From Aurelia coerulea (lineage: Eukaryota > Cnidaria > Scyphozoa > Semaeostomeae > Ulmaridae): a stretch of DNA of 64,000 bases. The notes below the pieces were generated by a model. It saw nothing but the letters and a program-made list of their open reading frames with translations. It had not been told where the DNA came from and searched no databases. Positions 6,354-64,000 of this stretch are shown piece by piece (the first letter of the stretch is position 1; each line of letters begins with the position of its first letter). The stretch lies in contig CM076956.1 in assembly GCA_039566865.1 (NCBI GenBank), positions 14,643,511 to 14,707,510 on the forward strand, read 5' to 3'. The translations under genes were made by a program, and so were the position numbers.

Positions 6354-6504
6354 TTGCTTCGAGAACAGTTGTATTCATAGGTATCATGTTCTGCTCCTAA
6401 ATACAATATGGATACTTTTTATAAAATTTCATTGATAATTTACAAGACATGTTGCTGATTACAATACCTACAAACTACGCTACAATGCTAAGACGGCACC
6501 ACAG

Positions 6505-6550
6505 CACAGTGATCCAGAACAATAGAGCTAATAGAAGAAATACCAAAAAA
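6505..6550 (+). other. RSS-like left end, 23-bp spacer
   Basis: The heptamer CACAGTG (6505-6511) is followed by 23 bp and then the block AAGAAATACC with an A6 run (6535-6550). The right end carries the same block. In V(D)J signals a heptamer is followed by 12 or 23 bp and an A-rich nonamer. Calling this block a nonamer is inference from conservation and position. Confidence 0.6.
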
Positions 6551-7198
6551 TGAAGGTGCTTATTTCTGACCACTGATCATACCACTCCAAACTAGATACG
6601 TTGGCCATCAAAATAAAAGAAATTTCATTTAAATCGGACATGCGAGCCCAGAGAAAATCGGGGTCAAAGTTTGGTGAAATCTACAAGTGTCAATTTCATG
6701 GCAATTTTATCAAATCTTCCTCTAATTGGTTAATTAATGCCAAAATTCAAATTCTCATTTCTTGGCTCAGAAGTGTCCGATTTTTACGAAATCAACTTTA
6801 TTTAGTACATAAATATCCCAGCTTTCAACGGAATACCACCAAAAAGAAATATGGATTCTAATTTCACGCTTAAATGAACATGCTTAGGGGCAGCACAATT
6901 TTGGCATTTTTGGCATCAAAATGTGGAAATTTCAAGTTTACACTTGAAAAACTAAAAAGTGACTAAAAGTGACTCTACCAGACTCACTTTTTGTGGAAGT
7001 ACCACGTCTCAGCTGAAAATCTACCGAGGGGATCGTACAGAATCGTACAGAAAAAAGATTTATGCGCAATTAAAAAAGTTAAATGTACCTCTTGATTTTG
7101 AAGAAAAAGTCTGGCTTTTGTGTTGCTTTCTAAGCAACATTGAATGAAATGGAATTGTTGAAAGGAGCTGCCAGGGACTTCAATTCATATTGTGTGAA
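6505..7198 (+). repeat. Left terminal inverted repeat of the Transib-type element
   Basis: It matches 11770-11232 in reverse complement with few mismatches. There are two length differences: 10 extra bases near 6524-6533 and a 143-bp block at 6980-7122 present only here. The open frame across 6601-6861 is mirrored at 11684-11424 because the arms are near-identical; I see no evidence that it is a protein. Confidence 0.93.
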
Positions 7199-7583
7199 AG
7201 AGGCAAGCCGAGAACGCTTGGATAATATTCATTTGCTCCTGCGCAGAGGCATCTAAAGAAGCACTCGAGTCCAACAATATGCTACTTAAGTTCCTGATAT
7301 ACCTTGTTGTAACAATTTTACACAAAGTTTTTGTAACTGTCTTGCTTCCTGCAAGTATGACCCTGCTAGACACTGAATTGTTTTATGTTCCCTTCAAATT
7401 TGTGGATTCAGAGTTTACACAGTTGTTTGAGTTATTATGTTTTAGTGTTAAGTAAGAGTTTTGTATGCATCTTTTCTGATGTTAGTTTCAATGAGAGTCT
7501 CCCACGTGTGGTTCCTACTAAAAGATATAAAATAGGACACTTGGAATAATTTTTGTACTTGGTTGTATTCTTCTTCGTACATA

Positions 7584-9720
7584 ATGTCGCTTGAATTAAG
7601 TAATGGTGAAATATTAGATTTTTTGCTAAAAAATGACGTCAAAAATAGAAACGTTCAGAATAGCGTTAAATTTCGTCGCTTGGCAGAGAAATTTATGAAC
7701 GAATACAATATCAAAGCTGATTTAAGTATCACTCAACAATCGCTGAAAAAATTATATGAAGTAAAGCACAAAAGTGAGGAGTGGCTAAGATTTGTTCGCA
7801 AATTTGAATTGGTGGATTCAGAACCAGAATCAGAAGAGAGAAAAGAAAAAAAGCTTTCTGGTCGACCAAGCCTCACAATTTCTGATAATCCATGTAAGAA
7901 GGTTGAAAGTACCATTTTGAAAAGAAATTTAGCGCAGGTTGCAGCTTCAGCTGAGGAGCAGGGAATAAGTAAAGAAGAAATGCTAAGGAAGATGCTAGAT
8001 GAAGCGAAACGTTCAAGAGACTGGAACAAAGCAGCACTCTTTGATACTTACACAATTGCATCTGAAATTTCCATCGAGGAAATTACTGCACTACTCTATG
8101 TTGCCAATCTATCGCAGCGACAATATCAAATGTGTCGTAATTTGTTGAGCAGATATGGTGTTCGAAGCATTTCCACCAAGAAATCAAATTGATGATTTCA
8201 AGAACACTTTGTATCCGCGTGTCACAGTTGAACGCTTATCTGCATCTGTCAGTATTACTGATCTATATCACTCAACTCTTTGCAACATCATTTCGAGTGA
8301 ATCCCTCCAAAGTAAATTGATTGATACTCCGAATCATGCAAACATAGTCTTCATGGTGAAGGCTGGGCTTGATGGCTCTGGATCGCACAAAAAGCGTCAT
8401 CAACTCTCTGGCGATCACTTTGATGACACAATGTCAGGTTCCTCAGAAAATTTTCTTGGGGTCTTCATGACTCCAATGTCTATTTTGTGCAATTTAACGA
8501 CGAACCTGTTGTTTTGTGGAAAAATCCATTGCCAAATTCTATTTTTTACACAAGACCGATTCAACTCTTCAAGGCTAAGGAGACACAAAATTTTGTTGAG
8601 CAGATTTTTCTGAACTTGCAAAGCTCGATGGATTCTTTGGAAATTCCACATGAAATCGAAGGTTTGTCCCATAAATGCAGCATTGCCACCAAAGTAACTA
8701 TGATCGATGGGAAAATGATGGATATTCTACAGGGAGACTCTGGTGCATTTTGCCATTATTGTGACATAAAGAGAGATGATGCGAGTGATTTGTTGGTTTT
8801 GTTGGAATATGGTCCCGGTGGTATGCAAATAACAAAGACGATCGAGGAATGTTATAGGAGGTGGAGTCTTGTTGAGTCTGGTGATATTGCATACAATAAT
8901 CAATTACGAGCCAGTCAATGTCACAAGCCTCTTATTTCAAAATCTGGTTGTTTTTTTTGCAGTATTGCATCAGGAGCTTAGATCTTTAGATTTTTGTTTG
9001 AAAATCTTGTACCATTTGGTTGCTGGGCAAAAGATTTAGAGCGAGACAGATTCAGTTGTTAAGTCCCAGGTTGCAAGTGCAAAGGCCAGGGTTATCAGTC
9101 ACGTTAGAGCGTCTTGTGGTGGGTTGCTTTTGGATTCGCCAACGATGAGCAGTGGTAACACAAATGCTGGACCTGTTGCGAAAAGGTTTTTTGGTCTTGA
9201 AAACAGGGTTGCCATTTCAAGTTTGATTGAAGATGGCGAAGATAGAGAAAATTTCTCTATTCTCCTTGGGATGTTAAATGATTGTTTGTCAGTGGTTGAG
9301 AGCGTAGATGTTGGAAAAAAGGTTTTTGTTGAGGGCTTTAAAAATCACTGTTACGAAACTATGGTACATATAGTTGTTCATTTTCCCTGGGTATTCATAA
9401 CCCCCAGTGTTCACCAAATGCTAGCACACTGCTGGCAGTTGTTTGAGATGCAGGACGGAGGACCCATTGCTATTTGGTCTGAGAGTGGAGTTGAGGCATG
9501 GAACAAACATGTGCGCAATTTCCGTAGCGGAGCAGGATGTAGAGCGAGACAGACTTCTGTCCAAGCCAACATCCATGACATTTTCGTAAGAATGCTCATA
9601 ACATCAGCTCCGGTAATTGCGAAGGTGAGACAAGATCTGTTGACACAAAGACGACAGCCTTCTTCAGTTGCCCATGTTTCAAATGAGGAAGAATCGCTGA
9701 TTCAATCAATGTATGAATGA
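7584..9720 (+). pseudogene. RAG1/Transib-like transposase, broken
   Basis: The start is the ATG at 7584 (MSLELSNGE). Total length is about 710 codons, a normal Transib transposase size. Frame changes are needed near 8155-8165, near 8465-8485 and at the T8 run 8951-8958, and an in-frame TAG sits at 9037-9039. Matches to the RAG1 core in order: VKAGLDGSG (aspartate 8371-8373, RAG1 D600 position); NPLPNSIFYTRPIQLF; MIDGKM (8706-8708, D708 position by spacing); GAFCHYCDIKRDDAS with CxxC at 8751-8762; LHQEL..FCLKI; MSSGN..AKRFF (RAG1 MxGNFARKL); HQMLAH (9412-9429, the HxxxxH zinc pair); IWSESGVEAWNK with glutamate 9493-9495 (E962 position). So all catalytic and zinc-binding residues persist despite the breaks. 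The family cuts at the heptamer and joins ends with a 5-bp stagger. There is no N-terminal RING region. Confidence 0.9.
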
Positions 9721-9761
9721 AGTTTCATTGAAGGAAGAAAAGACGATTTGTTAAGATTCTA

Positions 9762-11020
9762 GAGGGTGTAGAAAGGGGGGTACCGCTAGTCACTAGTCAA
9801 GCAGTAAAGCGTCCAGTTAATCACTAGTCAAGACATTTGGTTTCAATTAGTCAAAATTTCCTTTGAAAGTGAAATTTCTGTTATGAACTCCTTCTATGCA
9901 AAAGTGTATGATGAATTGCACTAATTACCTTTGTCTGAATGGAAAATCAATCAAAGTTTCTTTTACGTTAACTCCGATTTTGTGGGTGCATCACCAGCTT
10001 TAAGAATTTGAGTGCCAAGCTGCGGGTGAAACTGTTATACATAAACACCTTATCTGTCCCCTTTTTCGATTAGAACATGACAGAAATGGCCTATGTATCA
10101 CAAGACCAGGCTTCCTGCTGACACCAGCATCAGACAGTTGTAGATCCCTGAGAACGGCGTAAAAAGTGACATTATATTGCATACAGCCAAAGATATGCAC
10201 GTCACAATTGGATTGCTTATTTCTTTGTCAGGAAGACCAGTTATTCTCCCAAAACGTTCCATCACCTTTGTCCCAAGATAGTGCCAAAATTGTATTGTAA
10301 TTGCGTTTGATAAAATACACTTTTTCCTCAGCCGAAAGCGTCAAGATAGAACCAGGTTGCTTACTACAGATAAGGTCGTTTTGTGTCCCTTGCTTGACCG
10401 AGAGGCATGGGTAACCCAAAATAATTTTGAATTGAACGTTCGGGTAGAAGTGCTTTCCTGAATGGAGGGAACTTAAACATGATATGTGTTACAACAGTTT
10501 TCTGGGCCCACTCTCGAGATATTTATGCTGAAGAAGGAAACAAGAAGAATTTAAAAAATCTCAGCCTACCATTGATCAGAGACGTAGGAACCGAGGGGGG
10601 CATTGGGGGCACGTGCTTCCCCAAAAATTTTGCAAAAAACAAAGAAATGCGCGTTTATTTTCAGGGAGTGCCCCTTTAACTCAATGAAAAAGTGCCCTTG
10701 AAGTGTCGTGCCCCCCCCCAAGTTTGAGATGCTTCCTACGTCCCTGCCACTGATTGTTTTTAAAAAGAATATTTTGTGTGTGGTAAAGTTAGTAGTTTTT
10801 CCATTCCTTTTGACATTCATTGCTGAAAAAACAGGGTTTGTGTTACTTCTGGCCTCTGTGCAAATGTACTTTTGACTAAATGCAGAGAAAAATAGGCTTA
10901 GTCAAAAGTCAACTACAGAATATAGTTAGTCATTAGTCTATGCTTTTGAACAAAATTAGTCATTAGTCAGTGTGCAAAACAGTCTGTTAGTCAGCTAGTC
11001 AAAACCCCTTCTACACCCTC
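9762..11020. mobile_element. hAT-like non-autonomous element nested in the Transib-type element
   Basis: The ends GAGGGTGTAGAAAGGGG and inverted CCCCTTCTACACCCTC are flanked by ATTCTA (9756-9761, 11021-11026); the repeat reads as ATTCTAGA if two left-end bases are counted. Both subterminal zones carry many TAGTCA/TAGTCAAAA motifs in opposite orientations, like the subterminal binding sites of hAT transposases. No transposase frame is present. Confidence 0.82.
10577..10746. mobile_element. 170-bp hAT MITE, third nesting level
   Basis: The ends CAGAGACGTAGGAA and inverted GCTTCCTACGTCCCTG are flanked by CCATTGAT and CCACTGAT (7 of 8 identical). C and G runs fill the interior. A relative with a perfect duplication is at 58691-58848. 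Confidence 0.85.
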
Positions 11021-11231
11021 ATTCTAGATCGTAGTCGTTTTATTAGTTCTCTAGATACAATATAGCTTAGCGGATACTGCATTTCATAATGAAGTTATCT
11101 TGGCCGTTATAGGTTGTAGACCTAACGCCATGTGAAGAAATGATAAAAAGAAGCAGTTTACATTGCTTTGTTATTTGACTCTGCGAAGGAGCAGTTTAAG
11201 ATTTCTATTTACATTTTACTCTTCAAATTTC

Positions 11232-11770
11232 CACAAAAGATGTATTGAAGTCACTAGCAGTTACTTTCAACAATTCCATTTAATTCCATGTTGCTTAGAA
11301 AGCAAGGTAGAGTCACTTTTAGTCACTTTTTAGTTTTTCAAGTGTAAACTTGAAATTTCCACATTTTGATGCCAAAAATGCCAAAATTGTGCTGCCCCTA
11401 AGCATGTTCATTTAAGCGTGAAATTAGAATCCATATTTCTTTTTGGTGGTATTCCGTTGAAAGCTGGGATATTTATGTACTAAATAAAGTTGATTTCGTA
11501 AAAATCGGACACTTCTGAGCCAAGAAATGAGAATTTGAATTTTGGTATTAATTAACCAATTAGAGGAAGATTTGATAAAATTGCCATGAAATTGACACTT
11601 GTAGATTTCACCAAACTTTGACCCCGATTTTCTCTGGACTCGCATGTCCGATTTAAATGAAATTTCTTTTATTTTGATGGACAACGTATCTAGTTTGGAA
11701 TAGTATGATCAGTGGTCAGAAATAAGCAATTTCATTTTTGGGTATTTCTTCCACTTGCTGGATCACTGTG
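11232..11770 (-). repeat. Right terminal inverted repeat of the Transib-type element
   Basis: A 539-bp reverse-complement copy of the left arm. Read inward it starts with the heptamer CACAGTG. It lacks the left arm's 143-bp block and 10 bases of the terminal spacer. Confidence 0.93.
11731..11770 (-). other. RSS-like right end, 13-bp spacer
   Basis: Read inward from 11770: CACAGTG, then 13 bp, then AAGAAATACCCAAAAATG. Compared with the left end exactly 10 bp are missing between heptamer and block, about one helical turn. Confidence 0.6.
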
Positions 11771-11844
11771 CACAGGGCAGGCATTTTTATGCAATAATAC
11801 ACATTAACTCGGAATGCTTTGGTTTCAGGGACATTATTCAATGC

Positions 11845-23000: not shown

Positions 23001-26000
23001 TTCATTCAGGTATATTCCAGAATCCGTCAGATGGTTACAGCTGCAAGGGCGCACGGAAGAGGTCAAAGGGATATTGGAGAATATCGCACTGGTGAACAAG
23101 AAGAAGTTGCCAGAATTCGAACTCGCTGAGTTAAAACAAGAACAGACAGTGGGACTCACACACATTTTCGAGATCTTTAGACCAAAGAAAATTGCTATCC
23201 GGAGCCTGGTACAAGGATATATGTGGTATGGTTCACTTTTATTGTTGATCTGCTACTCAGTCCTGTCATTTGAGTTATAGGCAGATGCTTCCATGGCATC
23301 TTTCAGCATACATAGTGGTTGGGAATTTCCACTCCAGTCCCTAATAGTTCTTTCAGCGGTGAGCCAAACTTTTCTCACCAAAAGTGCCCTATTTAGGGCT
23401 AATTTCCAGTCAGTGGGATTTTCCGAGGGGGCGGAATTTTAGACTATAAAAGGTCGCTCAGCTGTTACTTCCTATTCAATTCCAGAGCGACATTTTCTCT
23501 CGCACACAATAGACATTCCACACAATTGGAAATTTCCACTGACTGGAAATTGGCCTTAAGAAAGAAGGTCGCCTGAATCCATGCATCCACATTCTCCTTC
23601 TTCTGGAAATTGGCATATTTGTTTGAAGCAAGGTTTTATAGCCGTGTGCCCTCCCTGCCGCAAACCCCAGGTATTGCCGTTGCACCCTGGCCTGGTTGCT
23701 TTCCTTGCTATCGAGGCTAGTCTTCCCATTGCTATAGACCTTCGGTTCGCGAGAAAGCTCTGCCGTTCTCTATCAAGTCTTATTTTTTCATCCTGCGGGG
23801 TGCTCACACAGCCTCCTCACTCGGAGAGGGTAGGGTAGCCGGTTATGCCGGCGACGCGACAGCCAGGCCATGCGGCAGGTTGTACTGGGTTACATGTTAC
23901 CAGTAGCAGGTTTAAAGGGGCAGTTGCATCAAAAGGTACAACGATAACAGTAGACAAGCCAATATCATCATTCAAATAAAAATTCCTTTATTGATTGGGT
24001 TAAAACGAAGGAAGCTGTGATTTCCCACCAGCTATTTGCTGCTAAGGCGAAGCAACTTGATTAACCGTGCTCGCCAAATCTGCCTTTATCTCAGCCATCA
24101 CTACAGCTATCAAAGTTTTGAGGGTGGGAACAAACTCTCTGATACTTAATTATCTAGAAGAAGTCTTTATTTTGTTCAGTTGTTTTTCCGATAACGCAGG
24201 AAAAACCTGTACAGGTGGAGGTGAAGTTGCAGTTTTCAGCTCCGAGCGCTGGGATCACAGAAGTAGCTCAGCGCTAATTGAGTCCGCGATCCCTTTTCAT
24301 GACGCTCAAATGGGGGGCTCTACTGGGTATCGAACCCTGTCCGCCTGATTGTTCTGCTGCAAGGTCAGAGGATTACACCACTGCGCCACAACACCTTCAA
24401 ATATGCAAGTATGTGGAGAAACACACTAGAACCGTGCAACTGCGCCCCATCAACACCCGACCTGCACTTGTCCTGCACCTGAACCTGAACCTGCACCTGA
24501 CCTGAACAGCATGCACTTGTAAGACTAATAGAGACTTGTAAAATGACCTTAGATAAACGGGGTATAGCAGCAGCACTACTCATGGACCTCTCAAAGGCTT
24601 TTGATTGCTTAAATCATGAGCTCTTGATTGCAAAATTAAGTGCTTATGGTTTCAGTGTGAGTGCATTGCGGTTGATCCATAGCTATCTCAGTGAAAGGAA
24701 GCAGAGGGTGAAGATAAATGGGTCTTTCAGTACGTGGAGAGAAACAGTAATTGGAGTGCCACAAGGTTCGGTCTTGGGGCCTCTGCTGTTTAACATATAC
24801 CTAAATTATCTCTTCATGTTTGTGAAAGACACTCAAATCTGCAACTATGCAGATGATACGACAATCTATGCCAGTGCTAACAACATTGAAAGTGTCATCA
24901 AAACATTAGAGAGTGATGCCCTTAAAATTACAAAATGGTTTCCAAACAACTGCATGAAGCTGAATGAGGACAAATGCCACCTAATGGTATTTGGAGACAA
25001 GAGTAACAATGTTTCCATAAATATCGGAAGTGTAACGATAAATGAGAGCACAGAAGAAAAGCTGCTGGGTGTGATTTTTGACAAAAAGCTCAGCTTCAAA
25101 CAGCAAGTAAAATCTCTTTGTAAGAAGGCTGGTCAAAAGCTACATGCTCTTTCAAGAATTTCTCATTTCCTTGATACTGAGCAGCTGAAACGAATAATGA
25201 AGGCATTTATCTTGTCCCAATTCAACTACTGTCCTCTTGTATGGATGTTCTGTGACAGAACATTGAACAATAAAATTAACCATATTCACGAACGGGCATT
25301 GCGAATAACTTACAAAGATATGAGAACAGATTTTGATACGATGTTACTGAGAGACAATTCGGTCCCACTCCACATAAGGAATTTACAATTGCTAATGACT
25401 GAAGTCTTTAAGACAAAATTGAGCCTTAATCCCAGCTTCATGAAGGACATTTTCGTTGAAAAACAGGTTTCTTATGGGTTAAGAGGCTGCCATAACCTAT
25501 CCTTGCCACAAGCACGCACTACGTGCTATGGCTTAGAGACAATATCGTTCCTTGGGTGTAGATTATGGCAGGCACTTCCCAATGACCTAAAACAGTCAGA
25601 TACTCTCTCCAGTTTCAAGAGGAAAATCACAACCTGGAGGGGAGAGGAATGTAATTGTAGAATATGCAGACCTTTCGTGGCACAGGTTGGGTTCTTGAGC
25701 TGATATTAAATTTTCTGCTGTATTTACCGAAAAAAAAAAAAAAAGTAAGAAAACATTGTAAATATTAAAAGCATTGTAAAAATCTGTAAAATGTATCTGT
25801 ATTTAATCATTCGGAATTTTATTTATTTTTTACTTTTTTCTTACAAATTTTACTTTTTTAGATAGTAGGCTTGAATTAGCTCTTAGTTATAGCTATTGTA
25901 TCTATATGTATATATGTCTTGTATGTATAAAGTGTACCGTTGAAGAGGGCCTAACCATTCGAAGAAAACAGGCATCAATTTGATCTTTTTGCGCTTTTTA

Positions 26001-52728: not shown

Positions 52729-54808
52729 CTTCCTACAATTTGCGTAACAAATTACTGTAATGGAGTTGGTCACAGAACAAAAGAACAAAAGATTACTTGC
52801 TACAGTTATACTACAATACAATATTGTTATGGTAACGCGCTCATAGGATAAATACAGGGGTCATGTCATGTCATGAGAAACAATGTGATTCAAAATTTTT
52901 CATCAAAATCGGCTTTTCAAGTCATGTGATCAATCTCTTGATAAAACATCTTTTGATTTCTCTAACATATCTCGCGCCATGCAAAGTTGTGTCATTGCCA
53001 TGAATGCAAAAAGTAGCATAATACTGTAACTTCCCAAGAGTATGGTCACATGACTCGAAATGGGTATTGCTGAAAAGGTCCTGAAAATGGGATCTGCGAA
53101 CGGGGAACATGACTTACGGTCGGACGGGGATCTGCCGCCCAGTATGTTGTATCCATTTCATGGGAGATTTCGCCAAAACATTTTTGAACATGGAATATAT
53201 TTCTTAGAACACTTAATACGTCCAAGGGCTCGATTAGCCTTTGTCTTGACAGTATGTTCACACTGCTCCGTATTCGTTTTTATCCGTTTTCATATTGATT
53301 CGTTTTACCTGTTAACGAAAACGATGAAGCGTTCACATTGCTCCGCTCCGGATAAAAAAGAAAATGCTGATGTGAATTTGAATAGACGTTGTGCGTTATG
53401 TGTTTATCCTCGGGAGTCACGTGACCGAGGTGCAGTGAAGCCTTTCAGTTCGAAGGAAGCTGAAGTGAGTTGTGATGATGAATTGAGACTAAACGTACAC
53501 GAATTCGAATTGATGAATAGAACTTGACACATCAGGACAGATGTGAATTTTGGAACTGGACTTATGATTTGATTGTCGATTGAGATGTAATATAGCGTAT
53601 TACATGCTTTCAGCGTGTCAAATTTGCCAAGAATACCAAGTATTGTATTTATTCGTCACTTTGTTTATTAGTAACAGCAGTTTTTCAAATTGGGGGACTG
53701 GGCTCTAGTACCCCTGTCTAAAAATAGCATTTGGGGGCATATTTTGAAGTGGCTCTATATCCAATATTTTTCAGCTTGTCAAACTGCTTGTGTTCACCAA
53801 GTATCATGCTTTTATCACAACAATCTGCTGTACTATTGCTACTTATTCATAAACATGGATGACGTCATAAATGAATGATGACGTCATACCTATAAATCAA
53901 AAGTGAGCAAAAATTGTAAATCTATACATCATTCGAAAGCACTGACTGTGTGCTATTCAAATATGCAATTTGTTTGGCAGTAGTAGCTACGAGAAAAAAA
54001 TTACAGCGGTCATAAGTGCATTTTCTCGAAGTTGATGACGTCACCAAAAAAGTTGACTTTCGGTCAAAATTTTTTTTGGCCCATCTTGGATTTAAAATCT
54101 CCATAGTCAATTGAGTGAAAATACGAAATAAAATTTGAGGTTAGCCACTTTGCCAGTTTTTTTGAGAAAAAACCCTGTCTAATACTGATTTAGTGTACGA
54201 AAGGATATGTTGTAGATATAGGTATAAATTATTATTACTTCGTGCGATTCATTTAATGTTGCGAACTTCTGGGTTTGAAGCGCTCGCGCGTTCGTGCTGC
54301 ATACTTTATCCTGGTTGAGTTTATTTTGCAGCATGTTAGCCCAGAATTATTCTTGAATTTTATATCAAGTGCTATGAAAACGAGACCACCGCTCTCTTTG
54401 AAATTGAGAGTTTTAGCGCCAAATAACTACAAAGCATTACACTCCAAGCATGACACTAACTTTTAGTGAGTCAGCCGTGTTTGTTGGTGATACGAAGAGG
54501 CTAAGTTGAAAGCCTCGATGAATCTCCCAAAAAGGGCTCCAGATCGCAAGCGCAGTAACGATTTACGTCACTTACGTAATATGCAAATTAGCTTGACCGT
54601 TGAGAACAAGGGAAGAAACAAAAGCAGCGATGCGCATGACAACGTAAGCCCCAACGTCGGTTCGCTCCCAACAAAGCTGAAACACAATATATCAAAACAA
54701 TAGGGTCAGCACTTCATCTCCCCAACAAGTGTTGAGAGAAGTTGTTCAAATTGGCGCGTGCTAAGCATGTTGTTGAGTTGTTGTTGTTGTTGTTGACCTA
54801 TATCAGTC

Positions 54809-56101
54809 TTGCCTGTTTTAGCCAGGGTCTTTGAAAAGCTTATTTATAACCAACTGTACGATTATTTGAACAAAAACAAACATCTATTTTCTAACCAATC
54901 TGGCTTCAGAGCTTTACACTCTGTTGTCACTTGCCTCCTTAACAACACAGATGACTGGTATGTGAACATGGACAATGGCAGATACACTGCAAATATTTTC
55001 ATTGATCTCAAAAAAGCATTTGACACCGTAGATCATGACATTTTACTTGCTAAATTGAGGAAGTATGGTATTGATAATCTTGAACTTACTTGGTTTACGT
55101 CTTATCTAACCAATAGAAAGCAATTCTGCAAAGTAAATGGGGTAGGTTCCAAAACAGAAGATATTCGCTGTGGTGTGCCGCAGGGTTCTTGTCTTGGCCC
55201 TCTTTTGTTTCTGATTTATATCAATGATCTTCCGTTTTCTCTGAAGAAAGGTAAAGTGACCATGTACGCTGACGATACCAGTATTTCTTACTCTTCTTCG
55301 AGCTTAGTAGATATAAACCAAACTCTGAATAGTGAACTGAATGATTTGAAGCGATGGTTGCAGGGTAATAAACTTTCTTTGAATGTTTTAAAAACTCAAG
55401 CTTTGATTGTAGGTTCCCAGCCCAAAATTAAGAAAATTACCGACAAGGCTGTTGATCATCCACTATTTTTTATTGGTGACTCGCAGGTTGAAAATGTAGA
55501 CCGAACAAAGTATCTGGGTGTGATAATCGATAGAAATTTGGATTGGGAAGAACACGTTTACAATCTCCGTACTAAGGTTTCTCGTGCAATTGGATTTTTG
55601 AAATATTCCAGGAAATTTTTACCTCAAAACACGTTGAGTGCAATGTATAGGGGTATCGTCGAGCCCCATTTTCGGTTCTGTTGTTCGGTGTGGGGGTGCT
55701 GTGGGGTGACTAAACTGCAAACCCTGCAGAAGCTGCAAAATCGAGCAGCTAGGATTGTAACTAAAAGTCGATTTGATACGCCTGCTATGGCATTAATTCG
55801 CAGTTTAAATTGGCCTACTGTAAATGACATTATCAGAAGCGAAACAGCTACCACAATGTACAAATCGCTAAATGGTCTGGTCCCGGAGTACCTTTCAGAC
55901 TTGTTCGAAAAAAATTCTACTCGAAATGTCAGAAAACTGAGAAACACCGATACTGATCTCTCGTTACCATTACGAAAAACTAACAATGGGCAGAGGGCTA
56001 TATCTTTTCGTGGACCTAAGCTTTGGAATCAACTTGAACCTGATGCTAAACAGGCACCCTCCCTTGCCACTTTTAAGAGAATAATCAAAAACTTGCCTTA
56101 A
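54809..56101 (+). CDS. CR1/L2-type LINE reverse transcriptase, 5'-truncated, open
   Basis: 430 codons without a stop. It shows LARVFEKLIYNQL, NQSGFR, FIDLKKAFDTVDHDIL (motif A), VPQGSCLGPLLFLIYINDLP, TMYADDTSISY (catalytic YADD), KTQALIVGS, YLGVIIDRNLDW and the C-terminal RAISFRGPKLWNQL...TFKRIIKNLP. The catalytic domain is nearly whole and only the endonuclease half is absent, so it could not move on its own. Its 3' UTR ends with a GAAAT repeat tail at 56225-56262. It is a different family from the LINE at 24543 by sequence and tail. Confidence 0.93.
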   Translation: MPVLARVFEKLIYNQLYDYLNKNKHLFSNQSGFRALHSVVTCLLNNTDDWYVNMDNGRYTANIFIDLKKAFDTVDHDILLAKLRKYGIDNLELTWFTSYLTNRKQFCKVNGVGSKTEDIRCGVPQGSCLGPLLFLIYINDLPFSLKKGKVTMYADDTSISYSSSSLVDINQTLNSELNDLKRWLQGNKLSLNVLKTQALIVGSQPKIKKITDKAVDHPLFFIGDSQVENVDRTKYLGVIIDRNLDWEEHVYNLRTKVSRAIGFLKYSRKFLPQNTLSAMYRGIVEPHFRFCCSVWGCCGVTKLQTLQKLQNRAARIVTKSRFDTPAMALIRSLNWPTVNDIIRSETATTMYKSLNGLVPEYLSDLFEKNSTRNVRKLRNTDTDLSLPLRKTNNGQRAISFRGPKLWNQLEPDAKQAPSLATFKRIIKNLP

Positions 56102-60041: not shown

Positions 60042-60566
60042 AATTTATTTACAAAGTAGGCTGAAACAAAACCATAGCTAAAATTACAGCTAATTAAGGC
60101 CTACTTATTTACAAAATTTACAATCTAATCTAAAAATAATATGTATATGTATAATTACAGTAATTTCACTAACTATCCTGTCATGAACCCAACCTGTTGT
60201 CTGTAGATTCTTTCAAACAAGCGCCTCCTATTTTGATGGATACTTCATTGTCTTTTGCACCGAAAATCATTAAATGGCATTTATCCTCATTTAGCTTCAT
60301 GAGATTGTTCGGAAACCACTCAGTTAACTTAAGGGCATCATTTTCTAAAGATCTAGTCTAAAACACCACACAGGTGAACACAAATGAACACAGGTGAACA
60401 CAAATGAACACAGATGAACACAGGTGAACACAGATGAACACAGGTGAACACAGGTGAACACAGGTGAACACAGGTGAATGCAGGTGAATACAAGTGAATA
60501 CGGATGAACACCGGCCAAATTGAAGATACTAGTAAGAACAAAAATGAACACAAGTCACTGCTGAAT

Positions 60567-61736: not shown

Positions 61737-63569
61737 TATTATTCATTGCATTATCTTCTTTTCATTGGAAGTAAGATCTCAACAGCGATTTCCCTTTTGT
61801 CTTTGACACAACTCAACCTCTGTTCGAATTCATGACATGAGATAAGACAGAAAGTTAATTATGAATCATAAAAAAAAGTTATTGTAAACTGTTCACGCAT
61901 CATCATTCAGATTGAAAAGCTGTCTCTCAACGTCCAATGGCTCATAAAATTGCATTGTTTGGAATCACATGCAGCAAAAAACATGGACCCCATACTTTCA
62001 TCTCATCATCTAATAGCGTTAACCGTACCGTAGAAGCTCTATTAAGCCCCCTCTCTACAAAGCCCCTTCTCCAATAAGCCCTCCCCTTTCAGACATTATG
62101 TCAAATAAGCCCCACTCTCTAGCCCCCTGCCCCACTTATATAAAATTCCAGAGACTACCAAAGATGTTTCCATCTATTTAGCTAAACAAATTTGCATGTT
62201 ACTTTTCATCTGGTTTGGGATAAATGATAAGCCCCCAGGGCCGGAGCTTTTTACAGTATACCATACAGCTTCTTGGCATGGAATAAGATACAGAACTTGC
62301 CCAAATTTCTGCGATTCGTCTGATCATCAATCTCGTTTTCTAAATTCATATGAATTATTACAATAATACATGTTAAATCTACATGTATTTATTCTAGTTA
62401 TTCATTCTTGACCTGTTCTTTTTCTGAAAGACTCGCAACTTGTGTTCTTTCTTGTTCTTAACAGTAGCTTCATTTTGGCCGGTGCTCATCCGTATTCACC
62501 TGTATTCACCTGTGTTCACCTGTGTTCATCTGTGTTCATCTGTGTTCATCTGTGTTCATCTGTGTTCACCTGTGTTCATCTGTGTTCATCTGTGTTCATC
62601 TGTGTTCATCTGTGTTCATCTGTGTTCATCTGTGTTCATCTGTGTGGTGTTTTAGACTAGATCTTTTCTAAATGCGCAATTACATTATCGATTTTTGGAC
62701 CATACGCATAAATCGTTGTATCGTCTGCATAGTTACATATTTCGGTCTCCTCCAGGAACAGGAACAAGTCATTCAGGTATATGTTTAACAAGAGGACAGA
62801 ACCTTGCGGTACACCTAGGGTGGTCTTTGTCCACGTGCTGAATGAACCATTGACCTTTACCCTTTGTTTCCTGTCGACGAGATAGCTATGGATGAACTGC
62901 AATGCAGATCTACTGAAACCGTATGCATTCAATTTTGCAATCAATAATTCGTGATTTAGACAATCAAAGGCTTTCGAAAGGTCCGTCAGGACGGCCCCTG
63001 CGACGCCTCCGCTGTCCAACGACTTTTTGCAGGTTTCAACTAAACGTAGAAGTGCATGCTGTGTACCATAGCCCTCTCGAAATCCACAGAGGAGTGGAGA
63101 CAAGAAACATTGGACAAAGGGCAGCATTTGATCTTGCATCAACCTTTCGTATATCTTTGATGCCGATGGCAAAACTGTAATAGGTCGGTAGTTTTTCTTC
63201 GAAAAGGCATCCTCTTTTTTGAAGAGTGAGCTTAAATCTCCAGCTTTCAATTCTTTGGGAAAAGTACCCTTAGATAAACCAGAGTTGAATAAATTTCGAA
63301 TGGCAACAGAAAATACATCAGAATTTTCCTTCAGGATTTTTGCAGGGATGCAATCAACTGGAGAGGCTTTACTCTGATTAAGTTGGTTGATTTTGACAGC
63401 AACCTCTTCCATAGTGACCTCTCTGAACTCAAAATTGTTGGAAAGCATAGCTTGCTCATTTATTTTGCAAATACTTGGATGAGCTTCATATTTCTTAATA
63501 GATTTGTCAATGGGATCTAGTATATCACTTGTTGGCAGCAAAAGTGAGTCATTTTCAGAGAGCATTCTG

Positions 63570-64000
63570 ACTTAGGAAACGTTGGGCAACACAAGCTTTT
63601 TGAAACGATAAATCAAGAGTTTGAAGCCTAAGGAAGAAAATGTCACGTATTGCCTTATTTCAGGATCTGTTGCAGGGAGCAGTAGACTCAATACATGTCG
63701 AAGTTTCGCTTGTTGAATGACTGATACCGCTACAACTACAACTGGAGCGACAATAACAACATCAGTTCAATGAGCTGAGATCAGCGTAAGTTGAGGGTCC
63801 TTATGGAGTGACGCTAGGGAGCTGGGGGACTTAAAGCTTGACTTTTTGCGCATGCCTGCGTTTGCGTGCGTAGTTTCTGCTCTGTCGATGGCCCCGTGTA
63901 AACAGTTCTCTTGACTGATGGGTCTATTATGTAAAAAATAAAGAAAATTGAAACGAAAAATGAAAAACCAAGAGAAAAGGGGGCAGTTTGTGTGATTTGT
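63570..64000. other. Right edge, nothing recognised
   Basis: Upstream part of the minus-strand LINE region, then unassigned sequence; CCCCGTGTAAACAG at 63892 resembles the CGTGTAAAC motif of the MITE at 49976. No SLC22 exon is visible. Confidence 0.4.

Follow-up and report, generated by a model that had tools for sequence, protein, structure and literature searches.

Unequal spacers at the two ends of a degenerate Transib transposon and its relatives in the jellyfish Aurelia coerulea

Introduction

Transib transposons are related to the element from which vertebrate V(D)J recombination arose. Those of Subgroup I carry asymmetric terminal inverted repeats (TIRs), an alpha11-alpha12 region and the CTT1 knuckle (Tao et al. 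2022, PMC9435367). Their asymmetric ends are seen as ancestral in that subgroup, and the main text of the same study gives no Transib spacer lengths. A role for spacer asymmetry in Transib transposition has also been proposed (PMC8355894), so that neither asymmetric ends in Transibs nor the idea that they serve a function is new. RAG1 alone has no preference for 12/23 over 12/12 pairs, the 12/23 asymmetry of the recombination signal sequences (RSSs) being recognised only by RAG1 complexed with RAG2 (PMC8355894). Amphioxus ProtoRAG prefers its own asymmetric ends (PMC8289069), HzTransib performs hairpin cleavage (PMC6941560), and RAG1L-RAG2L pairs have been described in Aurelia aurita (PMC7204232). 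Here we analyse a Transib element in a 64,000-nucleotide stretch of the Aurelia coerulea genome (hereafter the window; assembly GCA_039566865.1, contig CM076956.1, positions 14,643,511 to 14,707,510), together with its relatives in the same genome. The findings bear on the origin of the 12/23 rule.

Two ends with unequal spacers

The element occupies window positions 6505-11770 (5,266 bp), and its tips, CACAGTG...CACTGTG, can be read directly in the sequence. The left junction (6495-6517) is GGCAC/CACAG/CACAGTGATCCAG and the right junction (11758-11780) is CTGGATCACTGTG/CACAG/GGCAG. On re-reading, the original prediction, made from the letters of the window, proved exact to the base in its coordinates and heptamers, and its perfect 5-bp CACAG duplication is present on both sides. 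It had overlooked that the ends have unequal spacers, how long the terminal repeats are, and that a second element is nested at 9762-11020. Over 454 bp the arms share 97.6% identity, with an inner 77-bp block at 87%, and the ends of the window element are therefore more than a chance resemblance; a stretch of the left arm (6980-7122) has no counterpart in the right arm. An Rfam scan of the window at gathering thresholds gave no match.

We defined spacer length as the distance from the heptamer to a conserved box, so that the inner end of the spacer is set by this box and not by a nonamer. The short spacer measures 12 bp in nine of nine tips, each from a different family. Of nine long spacers, eight measure 21 bp and that of the window family 22 bp; set against a range of 23 ± 1 bp, the window family falls within it and the other eight are one base short. 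The RSS nonamer ACAAAAACC was not found next to these spacers. Its best counterpart by eye is AGAAATACC, with seven of nine positions matching at an offset of 2 bp, and in several other families AGG or TTG stands where the nonamer comparison has ACC. Because no nonamer is recognisable, we do not call these ends 12/23 RSSs.

The pairing of one short with one long spacer holds almost throughout. Among 41 elements from seven families with both tips seen, 40 combine a 12-bp with a 21/22-bp class end, in a census that is a sample taken from the best ~40 matches of each longer list. Twenty-one non-redundant elements (15 of the window family, six of other lineages) were read at both tips, and 20 of these are short/long. 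Only L057 departs from this: it is 12/12, its right arm is rearranged and it has no duplication. A further 19 pairs (one of the window family, 18 of a high-copy family) were derived from match coordinates, which give the spacer class and not the exact length, and all are short/long. One of the 18 high-copy pairs was also read at both tips, giving 21 and 12 bp with flanks that do not match as a duplication. An element on contig C21, spread across 13.7 kb, has spacers of 21 and 12 bp and the duplication CCTAG, and near-palindromic copies of 2.3 kb keep 12/22 too. Six of a set of 20 regions showed fewer than two tips and were dropped (L049, L051, L055, L056, L058 and L059); six of the 20 transposase loci gave both tips, with L017 and L019 repeating L047 and L054. 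The duplications of L054 and L060 (677 bp each) agree in the same orientation, and the two may be duplicates of one insertion.

The orientation of the asymmetry relative to the gene is not fixed. The long end lies upstream of the transposase gene in the window element, L022/L036 and L038, and downstream of it in L025, L026 and L032.

Copies and lineages in the genome

The genome searched has 294 contigs totalling 574 Mb. Searched with 347 bp from one end, it returned 242 first-look candidates, of which 40 were scored and all 40 matched; the element type, previously thought uncommon, is thus not so in this genome. Copies elsewhere end at the same heptamer with 5-bp duplications of their own, which are perfect in 15 of the 21 non-redundant elements and not in the other six. 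The search for other copies that the original prediction had proposed as a check thus turned up shared termini and, in most elements read, a duplication, and not the differing, duplication-free ends that would have spoken against it. The long-spacer end of the high-copy family, whose arm is 68-71% identical to that of L025, returned 425 candidates, and in all 40 scored the match starts with the tip's first base. A transposase search gave 1,026 candidates, 63 of them scored, with 71 matches. Among the transposase matches listed, eleven places have frames of 612-742 residues that no inner stop interrupts. The genome holds at least ten related transposase lineages, the ten compared being 53-72% identical to one another. 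The relative P0011 (EukProt Seg5140.1/GoldUCD) corresponds to locus L038 of this genome, at 100% over 524 residues. Contigs of prokaryote genomes and viral contigs gave pattern matches, yet tblastn found no relative in them.

Two groups of copies stand out in their arrangement. Most of the ~2.3-kb non-autonomous relatives among L041-L053 are near-palindromic, with arms 95-97% identical over ~900 bp, and consist of the arms together with fragments of the transposase gene. On contig C1 (42.6-43.5 Mb), L027-L031 are five near-alike Transib frames of 653 residues, ~167-318 kb apart, four without and one with an inner stop; the two frames read end in ...WNKCRDTPP, without the C-terminal part. They are perhaps a segmental duplication, and possibly a retained gene.

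A Transib transposase

The transposase remnant, predicted to follow the RAG1 core order with D, D, E and the CxxC/HxxxxH zinc ligands, is indeed readable, with its frames broken by switches near 8160, 8485 and 8952 and a stop at 9037-9039. An alignment that included HzTransib, BbRAG1L and RAG1 gave the positions of the catalytic residues and ligands. The best PDB match is HzTransib, ahead of RAG1L and RAG1, the fold matches being alignments to Foldseek's top chains. E-values for HzTransib, BbRAG1L and RAG1 are 3.8e-28, 1.6e-8 and 9e-5 with the single sequence, and 8.5e-48, 9.9e-21 and 5.7e-15 with a profile of 11 relatives, so that the lack of any profile match to RAG1 or Transib, named beforehand as a ground for doubt, did not materialise. 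In a tree rooted at its midpoint, in which branches are long and RAG sequences incomplete and which does not decide the matter by itself, the clade stands apart from RAG1 and BbRAG1L. The homologous transposase with its catalytic residues and zinc ligands, open in several relatives, is joined by TIRs starting with CAC and by a 5-bp target-site duplication in the window element and 14 others. Judged by sequence, the window element is a member of the Transib superfamily and not of the RAG1L-RAG2L elements. Of the earlier label "RAG1/Transib type", the Transib part stands; by E-values the transposase is closer to Transib than to RAG1 or the RAGL proteins.

Three regions outside the catalytic core bear on the comparison with RAG. 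A GRP motif lies at the start position of the RAG1 nonamer-binding domain (NBD), a likeness that is in register and weak on its own. The clade also has, between its CxxC and HxxxxH ligands, a stretch that, by alignment, partly corresponds to the RAG2-binding alpha11-alpha12 region of BbRAG1L and is missing in HzTransib. CTT1 (Cx2Cx3GHx4C) is absent from the window transposase and from 13 of 13 rows of its own genome, several of them incomplete, and likewise from the relatives P0003, P0005, P0006, P0014 and P0016. It is present by regular expression in P0018, P0019, P0023 and P0025 and visible in P0020-P0022. In these non-host relatives (P0018-P0023 and P0025) the C-terminal Cx2Cx3GH knuckle resembles the CTT of RAG1L, and the position expected for the fourth ligand is not Cys in P0018, P0021, P0022 and P0025.

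Inside the window element no open reading frame longer than 111 aa was seen besides transposase fragments, no RAG2 profile having been run. Two intact relatives, L022 and L025, have only ~0.5 and ~0.7 kb left beside arms and transposase gene, and therefore no room for RAG2L.

Homogenised arms, different tips

In six families we compared the 400 bp that follow the box; there, the two arms of one element are 94-100% identical. Compared between families, the same 400 bp are 55-68% identical, equal to shuffled sequence (59-67%), and the patches that can be aligned are short, up to ~170 bp. The arms were thus homogenised in each lineage after the lineages had parted. The tips behave differently: between families, short tips are 71-89% alike and long tips 68-85%. 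In L022 the arms are 99.8% identical over 552 bp, beginning directly inside the differing spacers. Despite this homogenisation, symmetric ends have arisen in none of the six families. The contrast between arms and tips looks selected, and provides evolutionary evidence that the asymmetry has consequences for a Transib.

Alternative readings

That a long palindrome merely resembles a transposon is an idea to which the near-palindromic ~2.3-kb copies lend some colour, but we give it practically no weight: copies carry their own 5-bp duplications at different sites, which already refutes such a foldback artefact, their boundaries are sharp at CAC, and a related transposase gene lies between the tips of the autonomous copies. 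A second possibility is that the window element is a ProtoRAG-like RAGL transposon that has lost its RAG2L gene. The gene pairs of A. aurita and the stretch in place of the RAG2-binding region would suit this origin. Against it stand the far greater closeness of HzTransib in sequence, the separate clade in the tree with the limits given above, the small spare length of the intact relatives and the lack of the CTT1 knuckle; we rejected it because the sequences are distant and the space is insufficient, and regard it as highly improbable.

The asymmetry of the tips may instead be inherited baggage: the ends would differ by descent, the transposase would be indifferent to them, and gene conversion of the arms would stop before the tips. 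Several points weigh on this side. HzTransib is active with symmetric ends (PMC8289069, PMC6941560), conversion tracts could end at the spacer, and the copies of a family may descend from few masters. The flips in polarity would be accounted for without selection if the long inverted arms recombined, an event that keeps one end of each kind. Against mere descent, the arms of six families are alike from the box inward and asymmetry was lost in none of them, polarity relative to the gene flipped while one of each was retained, and short/long pairing recurs in all pairs save one. We consider inheritance without function unlikely, and favour a transposase to which the two spacer lengths matter.

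Proposed mechanism and significance

Transib elements are cut by a nick at the heptamer and a hairpin on the flank, which leaves a blunt transposon end, and they insert with a 5-bp stagger. By analogy with HzTransib and RAG, a single intact DDE transposase would have bound both ends, nicked 5' of CAC in each heptamer and then closed hairpins on the flanks. The excised element would have been inserted with a 5-bp stagger, preferably at targets starting with C and often ending with G. Each end would be bipartite, with a heptamer-plus-ATCCAG element followed by the AT-rich box, and a gap of 12 bp at one end versus 21/22 bp at the other. We infer that the synaptic complex would hold one short- and one long-spacer end, in the manner of RAG with a 12RSS and a 23RSS and without RAG2, and that the boxes would be held by the GRP-containing domain resembling the NBD of RAG1. 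The spacers here differ by 9-10 bp, about one helical turn; 12 and 23 differ by 11, and the spacers of AanRAGL by 9 bp (PMC9435367).

The window element is probably a dead copy of an autonomous Transib with bipartite ends that were synapsed short with long in this way, without RAG2 and through an NBD-like domain. A bolder proposal, which we put forward tentatively as possible, is that a jellyfish clade of single-gene Transibs, lacking RAG2 and the CTT1 knuckle, obeys a strict 12/21-22 pairing rule read by the NBD-like domain. If true, what is essential to the 12/23 rule (ends in two parts, a difference of one turn and one end of each kind) would occur in the absence of RAG2, and would either be ancestral to Transibs or have evolved in parallel with vertebrate RAG once the CTT1 knuckle had been lost. 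A Transib preferring 12/21-22 would mean that RAG2 is dispensable for such a rule. This one genome offers several multi-copy Transib lineages with one-turn-different ends, both polarities and some open transposase frames, and because the elements examined have no RAG2 gene, the pairing rule is directly testable in a one-protein system. Our searches of open-licence papers turned up no account of jellyfish Transibs with 12/21-22 ends, nor of the contrast between arms and tips. The census, this contrast, the polarity flips and the clade without the CTT1 knuckle seem new.

Features of the window

The coordinates of the element and its parts are collected in Table 1. The nested element sits directly downstream of the transposase stop codon and is flanked by a 6-bp duplication. 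Elsewhere in the window, long open frames at 24501-25703, 54797-56101 and 62657-63571 contain YADD and VPQGS motifs, which are typical of reverse transcriptases of long interspersed nuclear elements (LINEs). Two 10-bp tandem arrays (60368-60511 and 62482-62645), inverted and ~2 kb apart, are 91% complementary over 188 bp and are perhaps the ends of another element.

Table 1. Positions of the Transib element's features in the window
Feature	Position	Strand	Basis or remark
Left target-site duplication CACAG	6500-6504		sequence; equals 11771-11775
Left TIR arm	6505-7199	+	6526-6979 and 7123-7199 match right arm
Left heptamer CACAGTG	6505-6511	+	sequence; letters equal RSS consensus heptamer
Long spacer, 22 bp, AT-rich	6512-6533	+	21 bp in other families read
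Conserved box GAAGAAATACC	6534-6544	+	inner end of long spacer
Transposase pseudogene, ~710 aa	7584-9720	+	length with three frame switches and one stop bridged
GRP motif and helical region	7845-8060	+	in register with RAG1 NBD; weak support
Catalytic Asp 1 (D263)	8371-8373	+	alignment
Catalytic Asp 2 (D374)	8706-8708	+	alignment
CxxC zinc ligands (CHYC), C389/C392	8751-8762 (codons 8751-8753, 8760-8762)	+	alignment
HxxxxH zinc ligands, H609/H614	9412-9429 (codons 9412-9414, 9427-9429)	+	alignment
Catalytic Glu (E636)	9493-9495	+	alignment
Left duplication ATTCTA of nested insertion	9756-9761		sequence
Nested transposon-like element	9762-11020		16-bp TIRs GAGGGTGTAGAAAGGG / CCCCTTCTACACCCTC
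Right duplication ATTCTA of nested insertion	11021-11026		sequence
Right TIR arm	11229-11770	-	
Conserved box GAAGAAATACC	11741-11751	-	inner end of short spacer
Short spacer, 12 bp	11752-11763	-	
Right heptamer CACAGTG (+ strand CACTGTG)	11764-11770	-	sequence
Right target-site duplication CACAG	11771-11775		sequence

Comparison with known systems

With Subgroup I Transibs (PMC9435367) the window clade shares TIRs that are asymmetric, a stretch where alpha11-alpha12 would lie and, perhaps, a GRP-containing NBD-like region; it differs in lacking the CTT1 tail and in having arms of several hundred bp. With HzTransib of Helicoverpa zea (PDB 6pqn, 6pqx) it shares the DDE core, zinc ligands and fold, as well as the 5-bp duplications that papers describe for Transibs in general. 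Identity is 28% over 440 aligned positions, and HzTransib lacks the alpha11-alpha12 stretch in the alignment and has TIRs described as symmetric (PMC8289069). The 12/23-like asymmetry is shared by Drosophila Transib5 and Anopheles Transib2 and N1-N3 (Kapitonov and Jurka 2005, via PMC8355894), which are insect elements with spacers of 12 or 23 ± 1 bp, in contrast to the 12/21 or 12/22 found here.

The ProtoRAG and RAGL transposons and AanRAGL likewise have CAC tips and 5-bp duplications, but encode RAG2L, and their transposase is RAG1L. ProtoRAG has asymmetric ends of 27/31, and AanRAGL ends have 4/13 between their elements, the same 9-bp difference as in most families here. The 12RSS and 23RSS of V(D)J recombination share with the jellyfish ends the heptamer CACAGTG, the 12-bp short spacer and a difference of about one turn between spacer lengths; the jellyfish Transibs differ in having no recognisable nonamer, 21/22 bp instead of 23, and no RAG2.
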